The position numbers and the translations under genes are program-made. From contig JAIYAP010000022.1 of NCBI GenBank assembly GCA_027488935.1, positions 1 through 64,000 on the forward strand: a stretch of 64,000 nt of DNA. Direction: 5' to 3'. Below, in pieces: positions 18,689 through 63,925 of this stretch (the first letter of the stretch is position 1; each line of letters opens with the position of its first letter). The DNA comes from Saprospiraceae bacterium (GTDB lineage Bacteria > Bacteroidota > Bacteroidia > Chitinophagales > Saprospiraceae). Under the pieces are notes generated by a model. It did no database searches, was not told where the DNA came from, and worked only from the letters and a program-made list of their open reading frames with translations.

Positions 18689-19034
18689 GCTCTTTTTTAG
18701 GCAAAGATAAGCACAGTTAAAATGCTAATCTTGTAAATTATACCATTTTACAAGATTACAATCCTATAAAATGGTATAATTTACAAGATTTGACTTCTAT
18801 AAACTGCCCATTTTATACCGCAAAAGTTTTTTCTTTTTTAAATAACAAAGAAAACGCATCTTTGAGCACCTATTAACGCATACCGCTAAGATGCAAAAGT
18901 CATGCTCGATACCCACCCGATCGCATTTAAACTCAGTAAAAATAAACTTATCGGCTTAGTGACGGCCATTGTGCCCACCGTGATCGGTATCAAGAGCAAA
19001 AATCAAATAACAAGTCTTAAAACAGCGAAACACC
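18689..19034. other. Intergenic region with ATPase promoter and inverted repeat
   Basis: 346 bases. It holds the ATPase -10 box (minus strand, 18702-18709), the inverted repeat at 18727-18790 and A/T-rich DNA up to the small membrane-protein gene. A reading frame opening at 18902 overlaps the membrane-protein gene in another frame and shows no family pattern, so it is not called. Confidence 0.6.
18727..18790. promoter_or_regulatory. 24-bp perfect inverted repeat upstream of the ATPase gene
   Basis: The arm 18727-18750 (begins AATCTTGTAAATTATACC) is the exact reverse complement of 18767-18790; the 16-base spacer contains a further CAAGATT. It begins 17 bases upstream of the ATPase gene's -10 box, covering the -33 region, which fits an operator. 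A small non-coding mobile repeat is the alternative. Confidence 0.75.
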
Positions 19035-29360: not shown

Positions 29361-29396
29361 AAAAGCCGTTTCGTTCGCGAAACGGCTTTTTTATTT
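29361..29396 (+). terminator. Strong rho-independent terminator of tRNA-Leu
   Basis: AAAAGCCGTTTCG (29361-29373), TTCG tetraloop, CGAAACGGCTTTT (29378-29390), followed by more T. A perfect 13-bp stem. Confidence 0.96.
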
Positions 29397-29400
29397 TCTA

Positions 29401-29488
29401 GTTGTTAGTTCGTAGTTGTTAGTTGTTAGTTAGTTTGGACAACGCTCCATCAAAACTAACTAACAACTTACAACTAACAACTATCAAC
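29401..29488. repeat. Inverted pair of heptanucleotide arrays (GTTGTTA / TAACAAC)
   Basis: Five 7-bp units (GTTGTTA, GTTCGTA, GTTGTTA, GTTGTTA, GTTAGTT) at 29401-29435, an 18-base spacer, then five complementary units (AACTAAC, TAACAAC, TTACAAC, TAACAAC, TATCAAC) at 29454-29488. The two arrays can fold into one long imperfect hairpin. Confidence 0.9.
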
Positions 29489-29489
29489 T

Positions 29490-29532
29490 AAAAAAAAGAG
29501 CCCGGCTTCGACTTTTCAAAACCGGGGTTCTC
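29490..29532 (-). terminator. Minus-strand terminator
   Basis: On the minus strand GAG-AAC-CCCGG pairs with CCGGG-CTC (plus strand 29522-29532 and 29498-29505), followed by eight T. The stem has a 3-base bulge. It terminates transcripts that come from the 29.8-kb region, or read-through from the siderophore-receptor gene. Confidence 0.6.
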
Positions 29533-45771: not shown

Positions 45772-46662
45772 ATGATTGCAATTATTGGCGCTTCCGGGAA
45801 CATCGGCAGCAAAACAACCGAGGCCCTGCTTGCTGCTGGCCAACAAATACGCGCGATTGCCCGTCACGCAGACAAACTCCAACCCCTGGTAGAAAAAGGC
45901 GCTGAAGCGTGGATCGGTGATGCCGCTGATTCGGAATTCCTTACCCGCGCTTTTGAAGGCGCGGAGGCCGTATTTCTGATTATTTCGGCACAAATGGATT
46001 CATCTGATATTGCGGCCTACCAAGATGTTATTGGAACGTCACAAGTAGCCGCCATTAAAGCAGCTGGCGTTAAAAATGTGCTGTTTATCAGTTCACAGGG
46101 TGGGCACACCGAAGAAAAAACGGGCATTGTGGCCGGTGTAGCACGTCAGGAAAAACGCCTCAATGCACTCGAAGGCGTGAACGTATTGACGCTGCGCCCA
46201 ACCTATTTTATGGAAAATACCTTCAATTCCATCGGTTTGATCAAAAATGCGGGCATCAATGGTTCGGCTATTAAACCCGACGTTTCGATGCCGATGATCG
46301 CAACCCAAGATATTGCGAAGGTAGCCGCTGAAAAATTGCTACAACTGCCTTTTACAGGCAAATCCCACCTCGATTTGTTGGGCGATCGTAATTATACACA
46401 AGTAGAAGTGACCCAAATCATCGGCGCTGCCATCGGAAAACCCGAATTGCCCTATGTTGAATTCAGTTATGCCGATCAAAAGGCTGGTTTGATGCAATAT
46501 GGTATTTCTGAAAGTGTTGCCGATGCTTATGTTGGCTTGTATGAAGGCATTAACATTGGACAGTTGTCGCATGGCGTGCGCAATGCCGAAACAACCACGC
46601 CGACTTCCTTCGAGTGGTTTGTTGAAAATGTGTTTAAACACGCGTACGCAGCAAACGCGTAG
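45772..46662 (+). CDS. NmrA-like NAD(P)-binding oxidoreductase
   Basis: 296 residues from ATG 45772. Rossmann fold with GASGNIGSKTTEALL at the N-terminus, then AEAVFLIISAQ, VLFISSQGGHTEE, LRPTYFMENTF, typical of NmrA/atypical SDR proteins such as quinone reductases or regulators that sense NAD(P). No catalytic Tyr-Lys pair is evident. A likely target of the TetR protein. The last two bases of its stop codon begin a 30-bp palindrome. Confidence 0.9.
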   Translation: MIAIIGASGNIGSKTTEALLAAGQQIRAIARHADKLQPLVEKGAEAWIGDAADSEFLTRAFEGAEAVFLIISAQMDSSDIAAYQDVIGTSQVAAIKAAGVKNVLFISSQGGHTEEKTGIVAGVARQEKRLNALEGVNVLTLRPTYFMENTFNSIGLIKNAGINGSAIKPDVSMPMIATQDIAKVAAEKLLQLPFTGKSHLDLLGDRNYTQVEVTQIIGAAIGKPELPYVEFSYADQKAGLMQYGISESVADAYVGLYEGINIGQLSHGVRNAETTTPTSFEWFVENVFKHAYAANA

Positions 46663-46690
46663 TAGTGACAAGTCGCGACTTGTCACTACT
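46661..46690. repeat. Perfect 30-bp palindrome at a stop codon
   Basis: AGTAGTGACAAGTCG (46661-46675) followed by its exact complement, without spacer. The stop TAG of the NmrA-like gene uses the first two bases. Core GACAAGTCGCGACTTGTC. Confidence 0.95.
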
Positions 46691-46724: not shown

Positions 46725-46780
46725 TGGCGACAAGCAGTGACAAGTCGCGACTTGTCACTACTTGTCACTACTTGTCGCCA
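46725..46780. repeat. Second copy of the palindrome inside a larger hairpin
   Basis: Outer arms TGGCGACAAG (46725-46734) and CTTGTCGCCA (46771-46780) enclose a 24-bp perfect palindrome of the same core (46736-46759) and an extra half unit CTTGTCACTA (46761-46770). It lies at the 3' end of the minus-strand receptor gene. Confidence 0.9.
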
Positions 46781-48668: not shown

Positions 48669-48698
48669 GGTAGGGACAAGTCGAGACTTGTCCCTACC
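48669..48698. repeat. Palindrome copy 3, in the leader of the receptor gene
   Basis: GGTAGGGACAAGTC (48669-48682), two bases GA, GACTTGTCCCTACC (48685-48698). It shares GACAAGTC-x-x-GACTTGTC with the palindromes at 46661 and 46736, but its ends differ (GGTAGGG instead of AGTAGT). Further half-units (ACTTGTCC) follow at ~48703. Confidence 0.9.
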
Positions 48699-53986: not shown

Positions 53987-54343
53987 GGGCTGGGCGGCTT
54001 TATTGGGTTCGCGGCAGATTGCCGACTTTTTTGTTTCGCGGTAGATGGTACACAGATTTGTTTCACAGATGCTTCACAGATTTTTCTGCGTAACATCTGT
54101 GAAACAAATCTGTGTACCATCTGCGCGAAAAATATTGCGGTCGGTTGTTTTACTGCAGATTGCATAGATTAGCACAGTTTTTTAAAGTTCGTTTTTTTTA
54201 AATCTAAGTCAATCTGGGCAACCTGCGGTGGTTTATTCGTATCATATAAATGTCTTAACGATGCATGGCTTGGGTAGTTATGCGATATGTGCAGATGGAA
54301 AGCCTATATAAATACTTAAATTTTCAACCCAAATATATTGATT
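53987..54343. other. Intergenic region with long inverted repeat
   Basis: 357 bases. The main feature is the 29-bp inverted repeat at 54043-54122; the rest is A/T-rich leader for the following gene. No reading frame is convincing. Confidence 0.6.
54043..54122. repeat. 29-bp perfect inverted repeat
   Basis: 54043-54071 (begins AGATGGTACACAGATTTG) is the exact reverse complement of 54094-54122 with a 22-base loop. Bases ACAGAT recur four to five times within. A REP- or MITE-like element is likely; it has no T-run on either side. Confidence 0.9.
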
Positions 54344-59399: not shown

Positions 59400-59966
59400 A
59401 TGTTACAATTTCTATCTCAACCCTGGCATTGGTCGGTAGCTGGTGTGCTCATCGGCCTCACCGTGCCCACGCTTTTGCTTTTAGGCAATCGTGTATTTGG
59501 TATTTCCTCCAACCTGCGCCACATTTGTGCGGCCTGTATTCCTGCCAACATTCCTTTTTTTAAGTACGATTGGAAAAAAGAGGCCTGGAACCTGTTTTTT
59601 ATCGGCGGTGCCATCCTTGGGGCGGTCCTTGCTGCCAACTTTTTAAAAGATCCGGCGCCGTTTCAAGTGGCGGCTGCTACCCAACGTGACTTACAGGCCT
59701 TAGGGGTACAGGATTTTTCGGCCATGATGCCTGCTGATCTTTTTGGTGTAGATCAGATATTTACCATAAAAGGGTTGATTTTTATGGTGTTTGGCGGTTT
59801 TTTGATCGGATTTGGAACCCGTTACGGCGGCGGTTGCACCAGCGGACATGCCATCAGTGGTTTGTCGAACCTGCAATTGCCTTCCCTCATTGCCACCATT
59901 TCATTTATGGCAGGCGGGTTTTTAATGACGCATTTTGGCTTACCCTTGCTGTTTAAATTGTTTTAA
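59400..59966 (+). CDS. YeeE/YedE family transporter, half 1
   Basis: 188 residues. Membrane protein of the YeeE/YedE (sulfur transport) family, with the hallmark GTRYGGGCTSGHAISG (Cys in GCTSG) and an extra TM region at the N-terminus (WHWSVAGVLIGLTVPTLLLLG). Family members include TsuA, which imports thiosulfate through cysteine relay sites. Here the transporter is divided between two genes, this half carrying the first cysteine motif. Confidence 0.92.
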   Translation: MLQFLSQPWHWSVAGVLIGLTVPTLLLLGNRVFGISSNLRHICAACIPANIPFFKYDWKKEAWNLFFIGGAILGAVLAANFLKDPAPFQVAAATQRDLQALGVQDFSAMMPADLFGVDQIFTIKGLIFMVFGGFLIGFGTRYGGGCTSGHAISGLSNLQLPSLIATISFMAGGFLMTHFGLPLLFKLF

Positions 59967-60008
59967 ATCGGGCATCCAAAACATCCATCACCATTAAAGC
60001 AAACAACC

Positions 60009-60527
60009 ATGTCTCAAATAGTAGATACACCATCCACCATAGAAACCAACACCGATTTTGAAGTGCGCTCGCTGGATGCGATGTGCGTCAATGATTCGCA
60101 CTTAGTCGAACCTTGGTATCACAATATTAAATATGCCCTGATCGGTATTTTATTTGGCATCACCTTCATTAAAGCCGAAATTGTCTCCTGGTTCCGCATT
60201 CAGGAAATGTTCCGTTTTCAGTCATTTCACATGTATGGCGTGATTGGCGTTGCGGTGGTAGTGGGCGCAATTTCCATCCAAATCATCAAGCGTTTTAAAC
60301 TCAAAACCATTTACGGCGAGCCGATCGAACTGCATAATAAGTCGTTTAACAAAGGCCAGATTTATGGTGGTTTGCTGTTTGGTTTTGGTTGGGCCATTAC
60401 CGGCGCTTGCCCTGGACCACTTTTTGCCCAAATCGGCGCTGGATTTTTAGCTGTGAGTGTTACCTTGTTATCGGCGATCGCGGGTACCTGGGTGTACGGG
60501 TATGTGCGCGAGCGACTACCGCATTAG
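60009..60527 (+). CDS. YeeE/YedE family transporter, half 2 (DUF6691)
   Basis: 172 residues, begins 42 bases after half 1. Four membrane helices with the second cysteine motif GWAITGACPGPLFAQIGAG (Cys near 138). Together with half 1 it should form a complete thiosulfate-type channel with two cysteine gates; split versions are known in Bacteroidota and Proteobacteria. The N-terminal ~40 residues are cytoplasmic or periplasmic lead. Confidence 0.92.
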   Translation: MSQIVDTPSTIETNTDFEVRSLDAMCVNDSHLVEPWYHNIKYALIGILFGITFIKAEIVSWFRIQEMFRFQSFHMYGVIGVAVVVGAISIQIIKRFKLKTIYGEPIELHNKSFNKGQIYGGLLFGFGWAITGACPGPLFAQIGAGFLAVSVTLLSAIAGTWVYGYVRERLPH

Positions 60528-60593
60528 TACCCATTGGCCAACTTTTTTTCATTGCCCTTTACCACATACCATTTTTTTAAAATTTCAATTTTT

Positions 60594-60980
60594 ATGCGCT
60601 TTTTTTTGATTTTTACTACCCTTTTATTGGGATTTGCTTGCACCCAAAGCACCCAGGCACAAAGTAAACTCAACGCCGATCAAACAGAAAACATGTTGAA
60701 AACCGATAAAACGGTGCAACTGTTGGATGTGCGTACACCCGGCGAAGTTCAAAATACCGGCAAAATAGAGGGCGCTGTAAACATGAATTTCAACAGTCCC
60801 GATTTTCAGGCACAACTTGCTACCCTCGACAGAGAAAAACCCGTAATCGTGTATTGTGCCGCCGGTGGCCGCAGTCCGCGCGCCGCTGCGCAAATGACCA
60901 AATTAGGCTTCAAAACCGTGTACGATTACACTGGCGGTATGAACGACTGGTTGGCAAAAGGAAAAAAGACAGTGCGCTAA
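60594..60980 (+). CDS. Exported lipoprotein rhodanese
   Basis: 128 residues from ATG 60594. Signal peptide with lipobox LGFAC16, so the protein is periplasm-facing and lipid-anchored. Rhodanese domain with LLDVRTPGEV and the active loop CAAGGRS (Cys88). It would accept or deliver sulfane sulfur outside the cytoplasm, between the transporter genes upstream and the cytochrome c gene 4 bases downstream. Confidence 0.93.
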   Translation: MRFFLIFTTLLLGFACTQSTQAQSKLNADQTENMLKTDKTVQLLDVRTPGEVQNTGKIEGAVNMNFNSPDFQAQLATLDREKPVIVYCAAGGRSPRAAAQMTKLGFKTVYDYTGGMNDWLAKGKKTVR

Positions 60981-60984
60981 TCGT

Positions 60985-62145
60985 ATGGGCAATTCCCTTA
61001 ATTTCATGGTACTTGCCTTGGTAATACTGGCCTTGGTAACCGGTATTTGTGTTGTGCTGGCCACCGTACAATTCCTGCGACGCAACATCCTGGCCCAACC
61101 AGAGCTGCAAGCGCAATACAAACGCGAACTGCTTGGCCTGCAACGCATGCACGCGTTGTTGCTGTGTTGTATTTTGTTGCTTTGCCTAGGCGGCGTAGGT
61201 GCTTGGTTTGCCACACAATCGGCTCAAAAACAGCAAATTACAGCCCTGCGCGCACATTTAATGCCCACTTTTGATAAAAATAAAATGTGGGAAGCGCCCG
61301 ACCACCGGCTGGCTGAAACAGACGCACAGGCCACGTTGATTGCCTACGGGGCCGATTTGATTCGCAACACCCAGGATTATTTTGGGGCCAATGGGCTGGT
61401 ACGTCCAGCAAGCATCAATGGCTTGAATTGCCAAAACTGCCACTTGGAAGCCGGTAGCAAACCATTTGGCAACAATTATTTTGCCGTCGCGAGCACGTAC
61501 CCGCAACTACGCGCACGCTCGGGCGCGCTCGAAACCATCCCCAAACGTGTCAACGACTGTTTTATGCGCAGCCTGAATGGAACGCCCATAGATACCAACA
61601 GTTATGAAATGCGGGCGATTTTGGCCTACATGCAATGGCTCGGGACTGGCGTTCCTAAAGGCGAGAAACCCAAAGGCACGGGTTTGGTGGAAGTGCCCAT
61701 GCTCGACCGCGCGGCTGAACCTGAAAAAGGACGGTTGGTGTACGCGACAAAATGCGCTTCCTGCCACGGTCCCGACGGACAAGGCCTGCCCATGCCGGAG
61801 GGCGCACGCAATTATCCGCCTTTATGGGGTCCGCGCAGTTATAATGCCGGCGCAGGGTTGTTTCGGATGTCGCGGCTGGCGGGTTATGTGAAAGCCAACA
61901 TGCCTTTTGGTGCCAATTATCAGAACCCACAACTCAGCGATGCAGAAGCCTGGGATGTGGCGGCCTTTATTAATGCCCAGGAACGACCAGCACACCCATT
62001 TTTGAGCACCGACTGGCCCAATATTGCCAAAAAGCCCTTCGATCATCCGTTTGGGCCTTACAAAGATACTTTTTCTGAAATACAGCATAAATTCGGTCCG
62101 TTTGGGCCCATTGTTGCCTATTACAAGACCTTAAATTCGAAATAA
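60985..62145 (+). CDS. Membrane-anchored dihaem cytochrome c, TsdA-like
   Basis: 386 residues. Two N-terminal membrane helices (NFMVLALVILALVTGICVVLATV; ALLLCCILLLCLGGVGAWF), then two cytochrome c domains: CQNCH (149-153) and CASCH (257-261). Between them RVNDCFMRSLNG with Cys192 matches the TsdA/SoxA-type segment that supplies a cysteine axial haem ligand. TsdA oxidises two thiosulfates to tetrathionate (or the reverse); SoxAX joins thiosulfate to a carrier. This protein would transfer electrons from sulfur compounds to the respiratory chain. Unlike soluble TsdA it carries a double-TM anchor. Confidence 0.88.
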   Translation: MGNSLNFMVLALVILALVTGICVVLATVQFLRRNILAQPELQAQYKRELLGLQRMHALLLCCILLLCLGGVGAWFATQSAQKQQITALRAHLMPTFDKNKMWEAPDHRLAETDAQATLIAYGADLIRNTQDYFGANGLVRPASINGLNCQNCHLEAGSKPFGNNYFAVASTYPQLRARSGALETIPKRVNDCFMRSLNGTPIDTNSYEMRAILAYMQWLGTGVPKGEKPKGTGLVEVPMLDRAAEPEKGRLVYATKCASCHGPDGQGLPMPEGARNYPPLWGPRSYNAGAGLFRMSRLAGYVKANMPFGANYQNPQLSDAEAWDVAAFINAQERPAHPFLSTDWPNIAKKPFDHPFGPYKDTFSEIQHKFGPFGPIVAYYKTLNSK

Positions 62146-62149
62146 AGCC

Positions 62150-63925
62150 ATGCCCACCACGTCCAATCCGCACGACCATAACCTGAAAAGAAGAAGTTTT
62201 CTCCGCAATACCTTGTTGGCTGGTTTCGGCGCGGGTTTGGGGCCGTTTACTTTCACGTCGGAAGCGTCCCCCCCCACATCGGAAGCGTCCCCCATTGTGG
62301 ACACGTCGGAAGCGTCCCCTCAAATTGTGGATAAATCAGCATCTCAAAGGGACGCTTCCGACGTGTCCACAATGGGGGACGTGTTATCCATCCTACAAAC
62401 CACCGACGTACACTGCCAGATCCATCCCCACGACGAATTGTTTTGGGAAAACGATCAAATGGTGTTTCGCAAAACCGCCGGTTACGCCCAGCTCGCCACC
62501 CTCTTTGAAAAAACCCGTAAAAGCAATCCCAATACCTTTATTGTGGACACGGGCGATATGTTTCAGGGCAGCGAACTGTCGGTAAAAACCACGGGCAAGG
62601 CCATGCAACCCATTTTGAACGGCCTGGGGTATGATTTGTATTTGCCCGGAAACTGGGAAGTGGTGTATTACAAGCAAAACATGCAAACCCTGCTGGGTGG
62701 ACTGGATGCACCCAAAATATGCGCCAACATGTACCACGACCTGGGCGAGGGCAAAAAAGGCGAGCTCATTTTCCCGCCCTATTTTACCTGGTCACGACTG
62801 GAGGTGAAAATCGGTTTTTTGGGTTACACCGATCCGCTGGTGCCTTTACGCCAATCGCCCGCCTATTCCAAAGGCATCATTTACACCAAACCAGAAGAAA
62901 ACCTGGCCTATTACGTGCAGGTGTTGCGCGAACAGGAGCAATGCGATTTTATCATTATGCTATCGCATTTGGGGCTTTCCCAACAAATTGCGCTCTCGAA
63001 TATGCCCGAATGTGCGGGGGTAAATTACATTTTTGGCGGCGATACCCATGAGCGCGTGCGTGTACCGATTGAAGGTAAATACGCCAAAGTCGTGGAGCCC
63101 GGCGCTTTTGGCTCTTTCGTAGGCCGGCTGGATCTGAAAATCAAAGATGGTAAAATTGTAGGAGAGCAGTATGAACTGATGGAGGTGTCACCTCAAAAAT
63201 ACAAGGCGCAAAAACAAATGACGCAATTGATTCAGGAAATGGAAGCGCCCTTTACCGCCGAAATTGAAAAAGTAGTTGGATACAGCAAAGTGCCGTTGTA
63301 CCGCTATTTTGTGATCGAAAACACCATTGATACCCTCATTTTGGACGCCCTTTCGTGGAAAGTCTCCGCGGATATCGTGCTTTCCAACGGATTTCGCTTT
63401 TGTCCACCCCGCAGTACACCCAATGCCGATGGCCTGATTCCGATCACTGAAGGTTATATTTTTGATATGTTGCCGGTAGATGCGCGGGTGCGTACCGGCA
63501 AGGTAAGTGGTGCTGAATTGCGGGTGTGGTTAGAAAAAGAACTCAACAATGTATTTTCAAAAGATGCTTCCAAGCGTTTTGGCGGTTGGGTGGTGAAAAT
63601 GCGGGGTATGGAAATCACCTTTAATGCCTTTGGGGAACAAGGGAAGCGCGTTCAATCGGTACAGGTGGGCGGGCAGCCGTTACAGCCCGAACGGATCTAC
63701 AGTGTGGTTGCTTGTGAACGGGAAGGTGATCCGGCCACCATGTTGTGCCGCATCCCCAATGTACAGGATGGCAAAAACTTCGATTTTACCTTGCATCCGG
63801 TCTTGAAAGAATACCTGGCAATACATTCTCCAGTTTCGCCTTTACCCAAAGGCGCAGCGCGGGCCCTGGATGCCTCCCCGCAATTGTTGTCTCAGGTGAG
63901 CGGCGTGCCTTACCAGTTTAAATAG
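62150..63925 (+). CDS. SoxB-like Tat-exported metallophosphoesterase
   Basis: 591 residues in the 5'-nucleotidase/SoxB superfamily. Tat signal (KRRSFLRNTLLAGFGAGLG, RR at 14-15), metallophosphoesterase domain ~80-340 (TTDVHCQ with Asp86 and His88, DTGDMFQGSE, GGDTHERV) and the C-terminal 5'-nucleotidase domain (~370-570). The histidine of the usual GNHE is replaced: GNWE at 167-170, a tryptophan seen in SoxB rather than nucleotidases. SoxB hydrolyses sulfate from a cysteine-S-sulfonate on SoxYZ. A repetitive in-frame segment at ~36-77 (TSEASP units) is described separately. SoxYZ is not in the window and may lie beyond its end. Confidence 0.82.
   Translation: MPTTSNPHDHNLKRRSFLRNTLLAGFGAGLGPFTFTSEASPPTSEASPIVDTSEASPQIVDKSASQRDASDVSTMGDVLSILQTTDVHCQIHPHDELFWENDQMVFRKTAGYAQLATLFEKTRKSNPNTFIVDTGDMFQGSELSVKTTGKAMQPILNGLGYDLYLPGNWEVVYYKQNMQTLLGGLDAPKICANMYHDLGEGKKGELIFPPYFTWSRLEVKIGFLGYTDPLVPLRQSPAYSKGIIYTKPEENLAYYVQVLREQEQCDFIIMLSHLGLSQQIALSNMPECAGVNYIFGGDTHERVRVPIEGKYAKVVEPGAFGSFVGRLDLKIKDGKIVGEQYELMEVSPQKYKAQKQMTQLIQEMEAPFTAEIEKVVGYSKVPLYRYFVIENTIDTLILDALSWKVSADIVLSNGFRFCPPRSTPNADGLIPITEGYIFDMLPVDARVRTGKVSGAELRVWLEKELNNVFSKDASKRFGGWVVKMRGMEITFNAFGEQGKRVQSVQVGGQPLQPERIYSVVACEREGDPATMLCRIPNVQDGKNFDFTLHPVLKEYLAIHSPVSPLPKGAARALDASPQLLSQVSGVPYQFK
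62258..62381. repeat. In-frame palindromic repeat element inside the soxB-like gene
   Basis: 33-bp perfect inverted repeat: arm 62286-62318 (begins CGTCCCCCATTGTGG) and its exact complement 62349-62381. In addition TCGGAAGCGTCCC recurs directly at 62258, 62279 and 62306 and inverted at 62349. All of it is translated in frame as residues ~36-77, a serine/aspartate-rich linker (TSEASP repeats) between the Tat signal and the enzyme domain. Confidence 0.95.

Follow-up and report, generated by a model that had tools for sequence, protein, structure and literature searches.

The SoxB-like gene at positions 62150–63925 of the window, the 64,000-nucleotide stretch of Saprospiraceae DNA analysed here, contains a genuine insertion (62254–62381) that belongs to a dispersed family of REP-like palindromes. 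The family is of a known kind (REP/RAYT) and is new in its combination of features: it is linked to a RAYT gene, lacks a constant GTAG foot, and has paired CGTC ends, a core of 11 codons and arms that change as mirror images. The reading that we favour, and consider probable, is that this is a mobile REP-like palindrome, mobilised by a divergent RAYT encoded in the same genome and tolerated within genes, whose arms are remodelled.

The host gene encodes a 591-residue protein in which Pfam identifies Metallophos (residues 80–301) and 5_nucleotid_C (residues 376–520). Its match to the SoxB model TIGR04486 (E 3.4e-68) reaches 230 bits, far under the curated cut-off of 550; judged by this score the gene is not SoxB proper and is labelled SoxB-like here. 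The N-terminal segment contains KRRSFLR, which we take to be a Tat-like motif, and the insert lies after this motif and before the catalytic domain. In the protein, the stretch encoded by the insert lies downstream of the Tat hydrophobic core and may hold the cleavage site. The features of the gene are as follows.

62150–63925, + strand: SoxB-like metallophosphoesterase/5'-nucleotidase gene with Tat-like motif, 591 aa (ORF; Pfam; NCBIfam SoxB below cut-off)
62189–62206, + strand: twin-arginine motif RRSFLR, ahead of the insert (translation)
62254–62381, + strand: palindromic insert, coding for residues 36–77 (linker exceeds that of 27 other orthologues)
62254–62271, + strand: direct unit 1, CACGTCGGAAGCGTCCCC, reading TSEASP (repeat search)
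62275–62292, + strand: direct unit 2, with one mismatch (CACATCGG...) (repeat search)
62286–62318, + strand: left arm of a perfect 33-bp inverted repeat (repeat search; RNA fold)
62302–62319, + strand: direct unit 3, the inner unit of the left arm (repeat search)
62319–62348, + strand: 30-nt loop between the arms, reading approximately QIVDKSASQ (sequence; RNA fold)
62349–62381, − strand: right arm with inverted unit, reading RDASDVSTMGD on the + strand (repeat search)
62349–62365, − strand: inverted copy of unit CACGTCGGAAGCGTCCCC in the right arm (repeat search)

The preliminary description had reported a perfect 33-bp inverted repeat with direct copies, read in frame within this gene, and our analysis bears this out: the arms are 33 nt long, 100% complementary and spaced by 30 nt, and the ORF continues stop-free through the insert as TSEASPPTSEASPIVDTSEASPQIVDKSASQRDASDVSTMGDV (residues 36–78). 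The palindrome and units are real as described, but the first unit starts at 62254–62255 and not at 62258. Of the four copies of the unit in the insert, three are direct and one is inverted; one copy has a mismatch. Folded as RNA, it reaches −82.5 kcal/mol (z = −11.0), and 0 of 200 shuffled sequences were equally stable.

Comparison with orthologues identifies the region as an insertion. We searched 41 genomes of the same genus for the SoxB-like gene and found a match in 38, one of which (G040) is a weak match to a different protein. The linker, taken as the distance from RRxFL to TDVHC, was measured in 29 of the 30 loci taken (L112, which begins within the gene, was omitted); seven more full or partial orthologues, including those of G007 and G008, lie outside the 29. 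It spans 71 residues in the genome of the window (G000, 6.28 Mb), 74 in a relative with a 96%-identical SoxB-like protein (G034), and 51–59 in the remaining 27. An ancient linker common to all orthologues is thus not what is found, as 27 of the 29 lack the insert. The linker sequence is variable across the aligned orthologues, in keeping with the earlier placement of the element in an in-frame linker: a dispersed repeat occupies a variable one. The insert codes for ∼42 residues and the net gain is just 12–23 (12–20 for the gene of the window), so some of the original linker sequence has also disappeared or been replaced. The G000 and G034 inserts have the inner arms in common; in G034 the left side is one unit shorter and the right side two units longer, and the size differences, 21 and 30 nt, are both divisible by three. 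This pattern suggests that the insert predates the split of the two genomes and has since been remodelled with the reading frame retained.

The repeat unit is dispersed through the genome, as the preliminary description had proposed to check. Exact matches to TCGGAAGCGTCCC number 22 in G000 (0 for the reversed pattern), and ACGTCGGAAGSGT units number 73 (1 for the reversed-pattern control), with 43 in G007 and 42 in G034. The G000 units are laid out as 24 sites with both unit orientations, 23 of which score as palindromes (the exception is L072), plus six lone units that were excluded as elements (L056, L058, L062, L063, L068 and L071), four of these within ORFs. Each arm holds one to three units, with spacers specific to the element. 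In G007 the repeat has also undergone tandem expansion, with five units spaced 16 nt apart (L076). Some sites adjoin convergent stop codons, with gaps of 4 and 1 nt at L054, 6 and 5 nt at L055, and a gap of 10 and an overlap of 2 at L059 e1; these distances come from a crude gene finder that left many flanks unresolved.

In the relatives the core reads AACGTCGG[A/C]AGGGTT, followed, after a few bases, by its mirror image. It is exactly 33 nt long in 62 of the 79 cores compared (10/20 in G000, 13/13 in G007 and 18/19 in G038). By reading, most cores form one tight hairpin, its centre 3 nt long, in which CGTC at one end pairs with GACG at the other. A constant GT[AG]G tetranucleotide is absent from the hairpin foot: cores of the relatives mostly start AACGTC, and G000 units are mostly preceded by C, with GTAG preceding at some sites only (e.g. 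L059 e1/e2). A scan of contigs from 84,980 species, confined to the GGAAG form of the hairpin (as opposed to the GGCAG variant described below) and possibly short of genomes close to that of the window, returned 16 stretches, all from Saprospiraceae, Saprospirales, Chitinophagales or Bacteroidetes/Bacteroidota MAGs; the same hairpin gave 0 matches in viral contigs. Among the open-licence PMC articles listed by literature searches, no title or abstract opening dealt with such a family in Saprospiraceae, or with CGTC together with a RAYT.

A candidate transposase for the family is encoded in the same genome. A 239-aa G000 gene (L057:1620-2336) holds a palindrome in frame, and its C-terminal half matches NCBIfam REP_Tyr_transpos (E 1e-12; 48 bits, cut-off 80). 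The same model matches 6/6 aligned proteins at E 0.01 (one a half gene and one a more distant G000 RAYT), and the sole match in a PDB profile search at E 1 is the TnpArep structure 4er8 (E 4e-4). Pfam Y1_Tnp matches 1/6 of the aligned proteins, and Pfam finds nothing for the G000 query. On these profile matches the gene is classified as a divergent RAYT (TnpAREP). The palindrome inside it sits between the HuH (NHFH) and Y (YIHxNP) motifs.

Palindromes lie in or beside most of the six close RAYT genes (G007, G000, G038, G037, G034 and G004). The G007 gene has them upstream, inside and downstream; the G000 gene has them inside and downstream, and none was seen upstream. In G037 there is an imperfect palindrome inside only, the G034 contig ends within a palindrome, and the G004 locus has no palindrome. 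G038 retains the C-terminal half of a RAYT only (L310, G038:C239:3800-7400), whose start lies within a palindrome that follows another gene and whose end precedes a second palindrome. The palindromes on either side of this half gene are of a GGCAG variant, and the repeat type follows the RAYT: ACGTCGGCAGSGT occurs 61 times in G038, 19 times in G045 and 0–5 times in the other 39 of the 41 genomes, with 0 in G000, G034 and G007, the genomes whose RAYTs go with GGAAG units, and ACGTCGGAAGSGT occurs once in G038.

Unit number and RAYT presence also vary together. With both variants pooled over the 41 genomes, and a close RAYT defined by ≥54% identity over ≥100 residues, at least 40 units were found in four of the six genomes that have a close RAYT and in none of the 35 that lack one. 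Fisher's test, calculated by hand, gives 15/101270 (∼1.5e-4), or ∼1e-3 when G000 and G034 are counted once, with kinship otherwise uncorrected and with the threshold of 40 units picked after the counts were seen. There are exceptions in both directions. G004 and G037 have a close RAYT with 0 units and 1 unit, respectively, and G008, G031, G039, G045, G018 and G030 have 5–19 units and no close RAYT (five variant matches each in G018 and G030), which requires either that the RAYT was lost or that there was transfer.

Y1_Tnp (PF01797) genes, tried as a lead to the linked transposase, occur in 10/10 genomes, and none of ten loci scanned shows the palindrome; L167 and L168 each have a single isolated 9-base match to the core of the unit. 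Taken by themselves these loci would speak against a RAYT link; the linked RAYT, which is absent from the PF01797 matches, was identified through its ORF spanning a palindrome. As a separate observation, three of seven other Y1_Tnp loci of G000 and G034 (L167, L168 and L175) have palindromes of their own headed by CTACAAATG.

Copies are present in frame in several further genes. We counted as coding insertions those with coding sequence on both sides and with family or orthologue support. A histidine kinase of G007 carries TSEGLETLPTL inside its HATPase_c domain, and a 49%-identical protein of G030 carries TSAGLQTLPTL at the same place. The isobutyryl-CoA mutase IcmF of G007 contains an in-frame NVGRVSNPSDV, and the 83%-identical G038 protein has a longer GGCAG-variant insert there. 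In-frame copies are likewise found in the carbamoyl-phosphate synthase CarB of G007 (TSEGFETLPTLETLPTL), in a hybrid kinase/AraC regulator of G044, in the SoxB-like gene of G000 and G034, and in the RAYT of G000, G007 and G037. A twelfth case, close to the C-terminal end of a long ORF of G033, is supported by its reading frame only. Palindrome-spanning ORFs that lack family support (L080, the N-terminal part of L150, L158, L076, L055 and others) were rejected as coding insertions, and L060 was omitted because it lies ≤12 residues from an ORF start.

Close insert-free orthologues were obtained for the SoxB-like gene only; for two other carriers, solved structures give a reference. The region spans 30 residues in G007 CarB versus 5 in a solved E. 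coli-type CarB chain, and 73 residues in IcmF versus 10 in the solved fused isobutyryl-CoA mutase 4xc6, so that some of the IcmF excess is not repeat. The basic RRKG/PFRR frame is used, by reading, in 0 of the 12 two-sided coding insertions, a weak indication given at most 7–8 independent events. Copies in recognised genes are a minority (4/13 cores in G007 and 2/23 palindromes in G000). The occupation of one IcmF site by different variants (L300 in G038, L077 in G007) could reflect in-place rewriting or a repeated hit.

The hairpin at an orthologous intergenic site may differ between G000 and G034, and each version is again symmetric. The C tract of L059 e1 measures 7 and 8 nt on its two arms in G000, and 5 nt on both in G034; at L059 e2 an entirely different hairpin occupies the same place in G034; and at L069 a TTTGACA/TGTCAAA pair in G000 corresponds to TTTAACA/TGTTAAA in G034. 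Several G034 sites are partial, their contigs ending inside the repeat, and for some G000 sites no G034 counterpart was found. Among 19 of the 23 G000 palindromes (short arms at L060, L073, one L069 copy and the first L057 copy were omitted), the identity of an arm to its own partner is 0.991, versus 0.358 to the partners of other elements (0 of 10,000 permutations); without the copies on contigs C53 and C67 (12 elements) the values are 0.997 and 0.316. Because element limits come from the palindrome search, the high own-partner identity is partly built in, and the informative part is that arms differ among elements. Hairpin selection and arm-to-arm conversion would each produce such mirrored turnover, and these data do not separate the two.

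RAYTs are HUH single-strand nucleases (PMC6006769). We infer that hairpins with CGTC ends are recognised by the linked RAYT, which moves or copies them via single-stranded DNA. IS200-type transposition creates no target duplication, and a 33-nt core entering in this way would therefore add exactly 11 codons. An example core is closed by a stop in one of its six frames, and no frame of the G000 unit is closed. Most copies would settle away from recognised genes, in several cases right beside stop codons; an intragenic copy would be tolerable where its 11 codons, open in most frames, fall in a loop or linker, and gene-breaking copies would be lost. Later growth by units within a gene would have to stay a multiple of three, as in the G000/G034 pair. 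Resident copies would gain and lose units while their arms stay, or return to, mirror images, probably by fold-back template switching or arm conversion. Against this model, transposition was not observed and no precise empty/filled pair for a 33-nt insertion was obtained.

Several other explanations were weighed. The palindromes could be selected hairpins, serving as bidirectional terminators or stabilisers of mRNA 3' ends, that were spread by ordinary recombination and decorated the RAYT by chance. The copies that adjoin convergent stops (L054, L055 and L059 e1) would fit this explanation, as would the intergenic sites that are still occupied in G034 with changed unit content and arms mirrored again; we nevertheless regard it as distinctly unlikely, since it leaves unexplained the copies inside the CarB, IcmF, kinase and SoxB-like genes, the palindromes in and beside the RAYTs of several genomes, and the variant that accompanies the G038 RAYT. 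Host slippage, fold-back replication and unequal exchange might instead make and disperse the repeat with no transposase, and the tandem expansion in G007 (L076) and mirrored arm changes are typical of such processes. They account for growth and symmetry at an existing site, not for spread to many unrelated sites and genes, and we hold this explanation to be very improbable. A native low-complexity linker merely resembling the repeat would suit the variability of the linker among orthologues, yet is already contradicted, and in our judgement virtually eliminated, by a multi-copy unit with controls of 0–1, a linker at least 12 residues longer than any of the 27 others, and the 33-bp perfect palindrome. 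Repeats do disturb assembly, and seven G034 contigs start ≤21 bases from a unit, but the G034 orthologue holds the insert within one contig, with frame intact and different unit content, which makes an assembly artefact or chimera at the palindrome exceedingly improbable.

For the favoured reading, a mobile RAYT-linked palindrome, published systems offer partial parallels, contrary to the earlier statement that no counterpart in Bacteroidota had been described. TnpAREP subclass 2.4 of Cyanobacteria and Bacteroidetes includes in-frame REP insertions inside the transposase gene, between the HuH and Y motifs, and REP insertions in unrelated genes are noted in the same study (PMC6006769). As in our family, the transposase gene stands beside its own palindromes, with copies elsewhere in the genome. 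Compared with subclass 2.4 as described there, our family differs in its CGTC/GACG ends without a constant GT[AG]G foot and in its multi-unit arms, and the Y-motif region reads YIH[AKR]NP in the linked RAYTs versus YIxNNP in the subclass 2.4 table (PMC6006769). Subclass 2.6 is similar in occurring in Bacteroidetes with repeats that lack GTAG, but its structures are described as weaker and atypical, whereas the Saprospiraceae palindromes are strong (PMC6006769).

Intragenic REPs have been catalogued in several species, RPE-4/-6 among them, and CGTC-tagged REPs, which include the R. conorii RPE-4/-6, occur in five phyla including Bacteroidetes, with no transposase reported for them (PMC3733652). 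They resemble our family in having CGTC adjoining a half-stem, copies within and between genes, and Bacteroidetes hosts. The published tags are reported to be unpaired, with AT at the first stem positions, loops of 4–5 nt and no transposase gene flanked (PMC3733652). In contrast, the Saprospiraceae family pairs CGTC with GACG, has a 3-nt centre in its 33-nt core and is RAYT-linked, and so shows neither the unpaired tag with a 4–5-nt loop nor the absence of transposase association. The earlier comparison with Rickettsia palindromic elements holds in part. Like these elements, the palindromes lie in frame inside unrelated protein genes (SoxB-like, IcmF, CarB, kinases and RAYT), a likeness of habit; unlike them, most copies lie outside recognised genes, which makes the family REP-like rather than RPE-like, and they are linked to a RAYT. 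REPINs and BIMEs are inverted REP pairs that form hairpins with mixed units, as two hairpins with a spacer between. Our family shares the inverted pairs, hairpins and unit mixtures, and differs in that most cores fold compactly into a single hairpin whose centre is 3 nt long. Mitochondrial genes of Nematomorpha likewise contain long perfect inverted repeats (PMC6649704).

A bolder version of the favoured reading, offered tentatively since we think it unlikely to hold as a whole, would describe a RAYT-driven palindrome family with a CGTC and not a GTAG foot, a transposase-linked relative of the CGTC/RPE repeats, whose 33-nt core is nearly frame-neutral when inserted without target duplication, which has proteins such as CarB and the transposase itself as regular homes, and whose resident copies are rewritten to the current variant. 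We know of no accepted mechanism for the in-frame entry of palindromes such as RPEs into genes. CGTC-ended palindromes in frame in several enzymes and in the company of a RAYT provide a testable one, and the way in which arms turn over as mirror images in sister genomes provides a natural record of long-palindrome evolution. Should the RAYT link fail, the family would still stand as a mapped repeat that interrupts assemblies and misleads the annotation of proteins.

Some additional observations concern the surroundings of the repeats. The copies at L069 (G000:C67:29500-38000) and on C53 lie in a cassette-like array, with small ORFs between palindrome-bearing repeated blocks in one orientation. 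On C67 four palindrome copies lie 1.1–2.4 kb apart within repeated blocks of about 100–185 bp, and ∼5 kb holding three of the four has no match in the G034 locus. Integron attC sites were considered for these copies and set aside, as by eye the ends do not match the attC core. Within the window, another palindrome family, AGTAGTGACAAGTCGCGACTTGTCACTACT, has several copies (46661–46690, 46733–46772 and 48669–48698), and further long imperfect palindromes lie at 54043–54122, 18718–18799 and 29394–29495, at least two of which seem to be made of short iterated words. A short tandem repeat of CACTCAT occupies positions 1–98. Upstream of the SoxB-like gene, positions 59400–62145 have by eye the look of a sulfur cluster, with two YeeE/YedE-like membrane proteins and a rhodanese-like protein, followed by a cytochrome c with a SoxA/TsdA domain.
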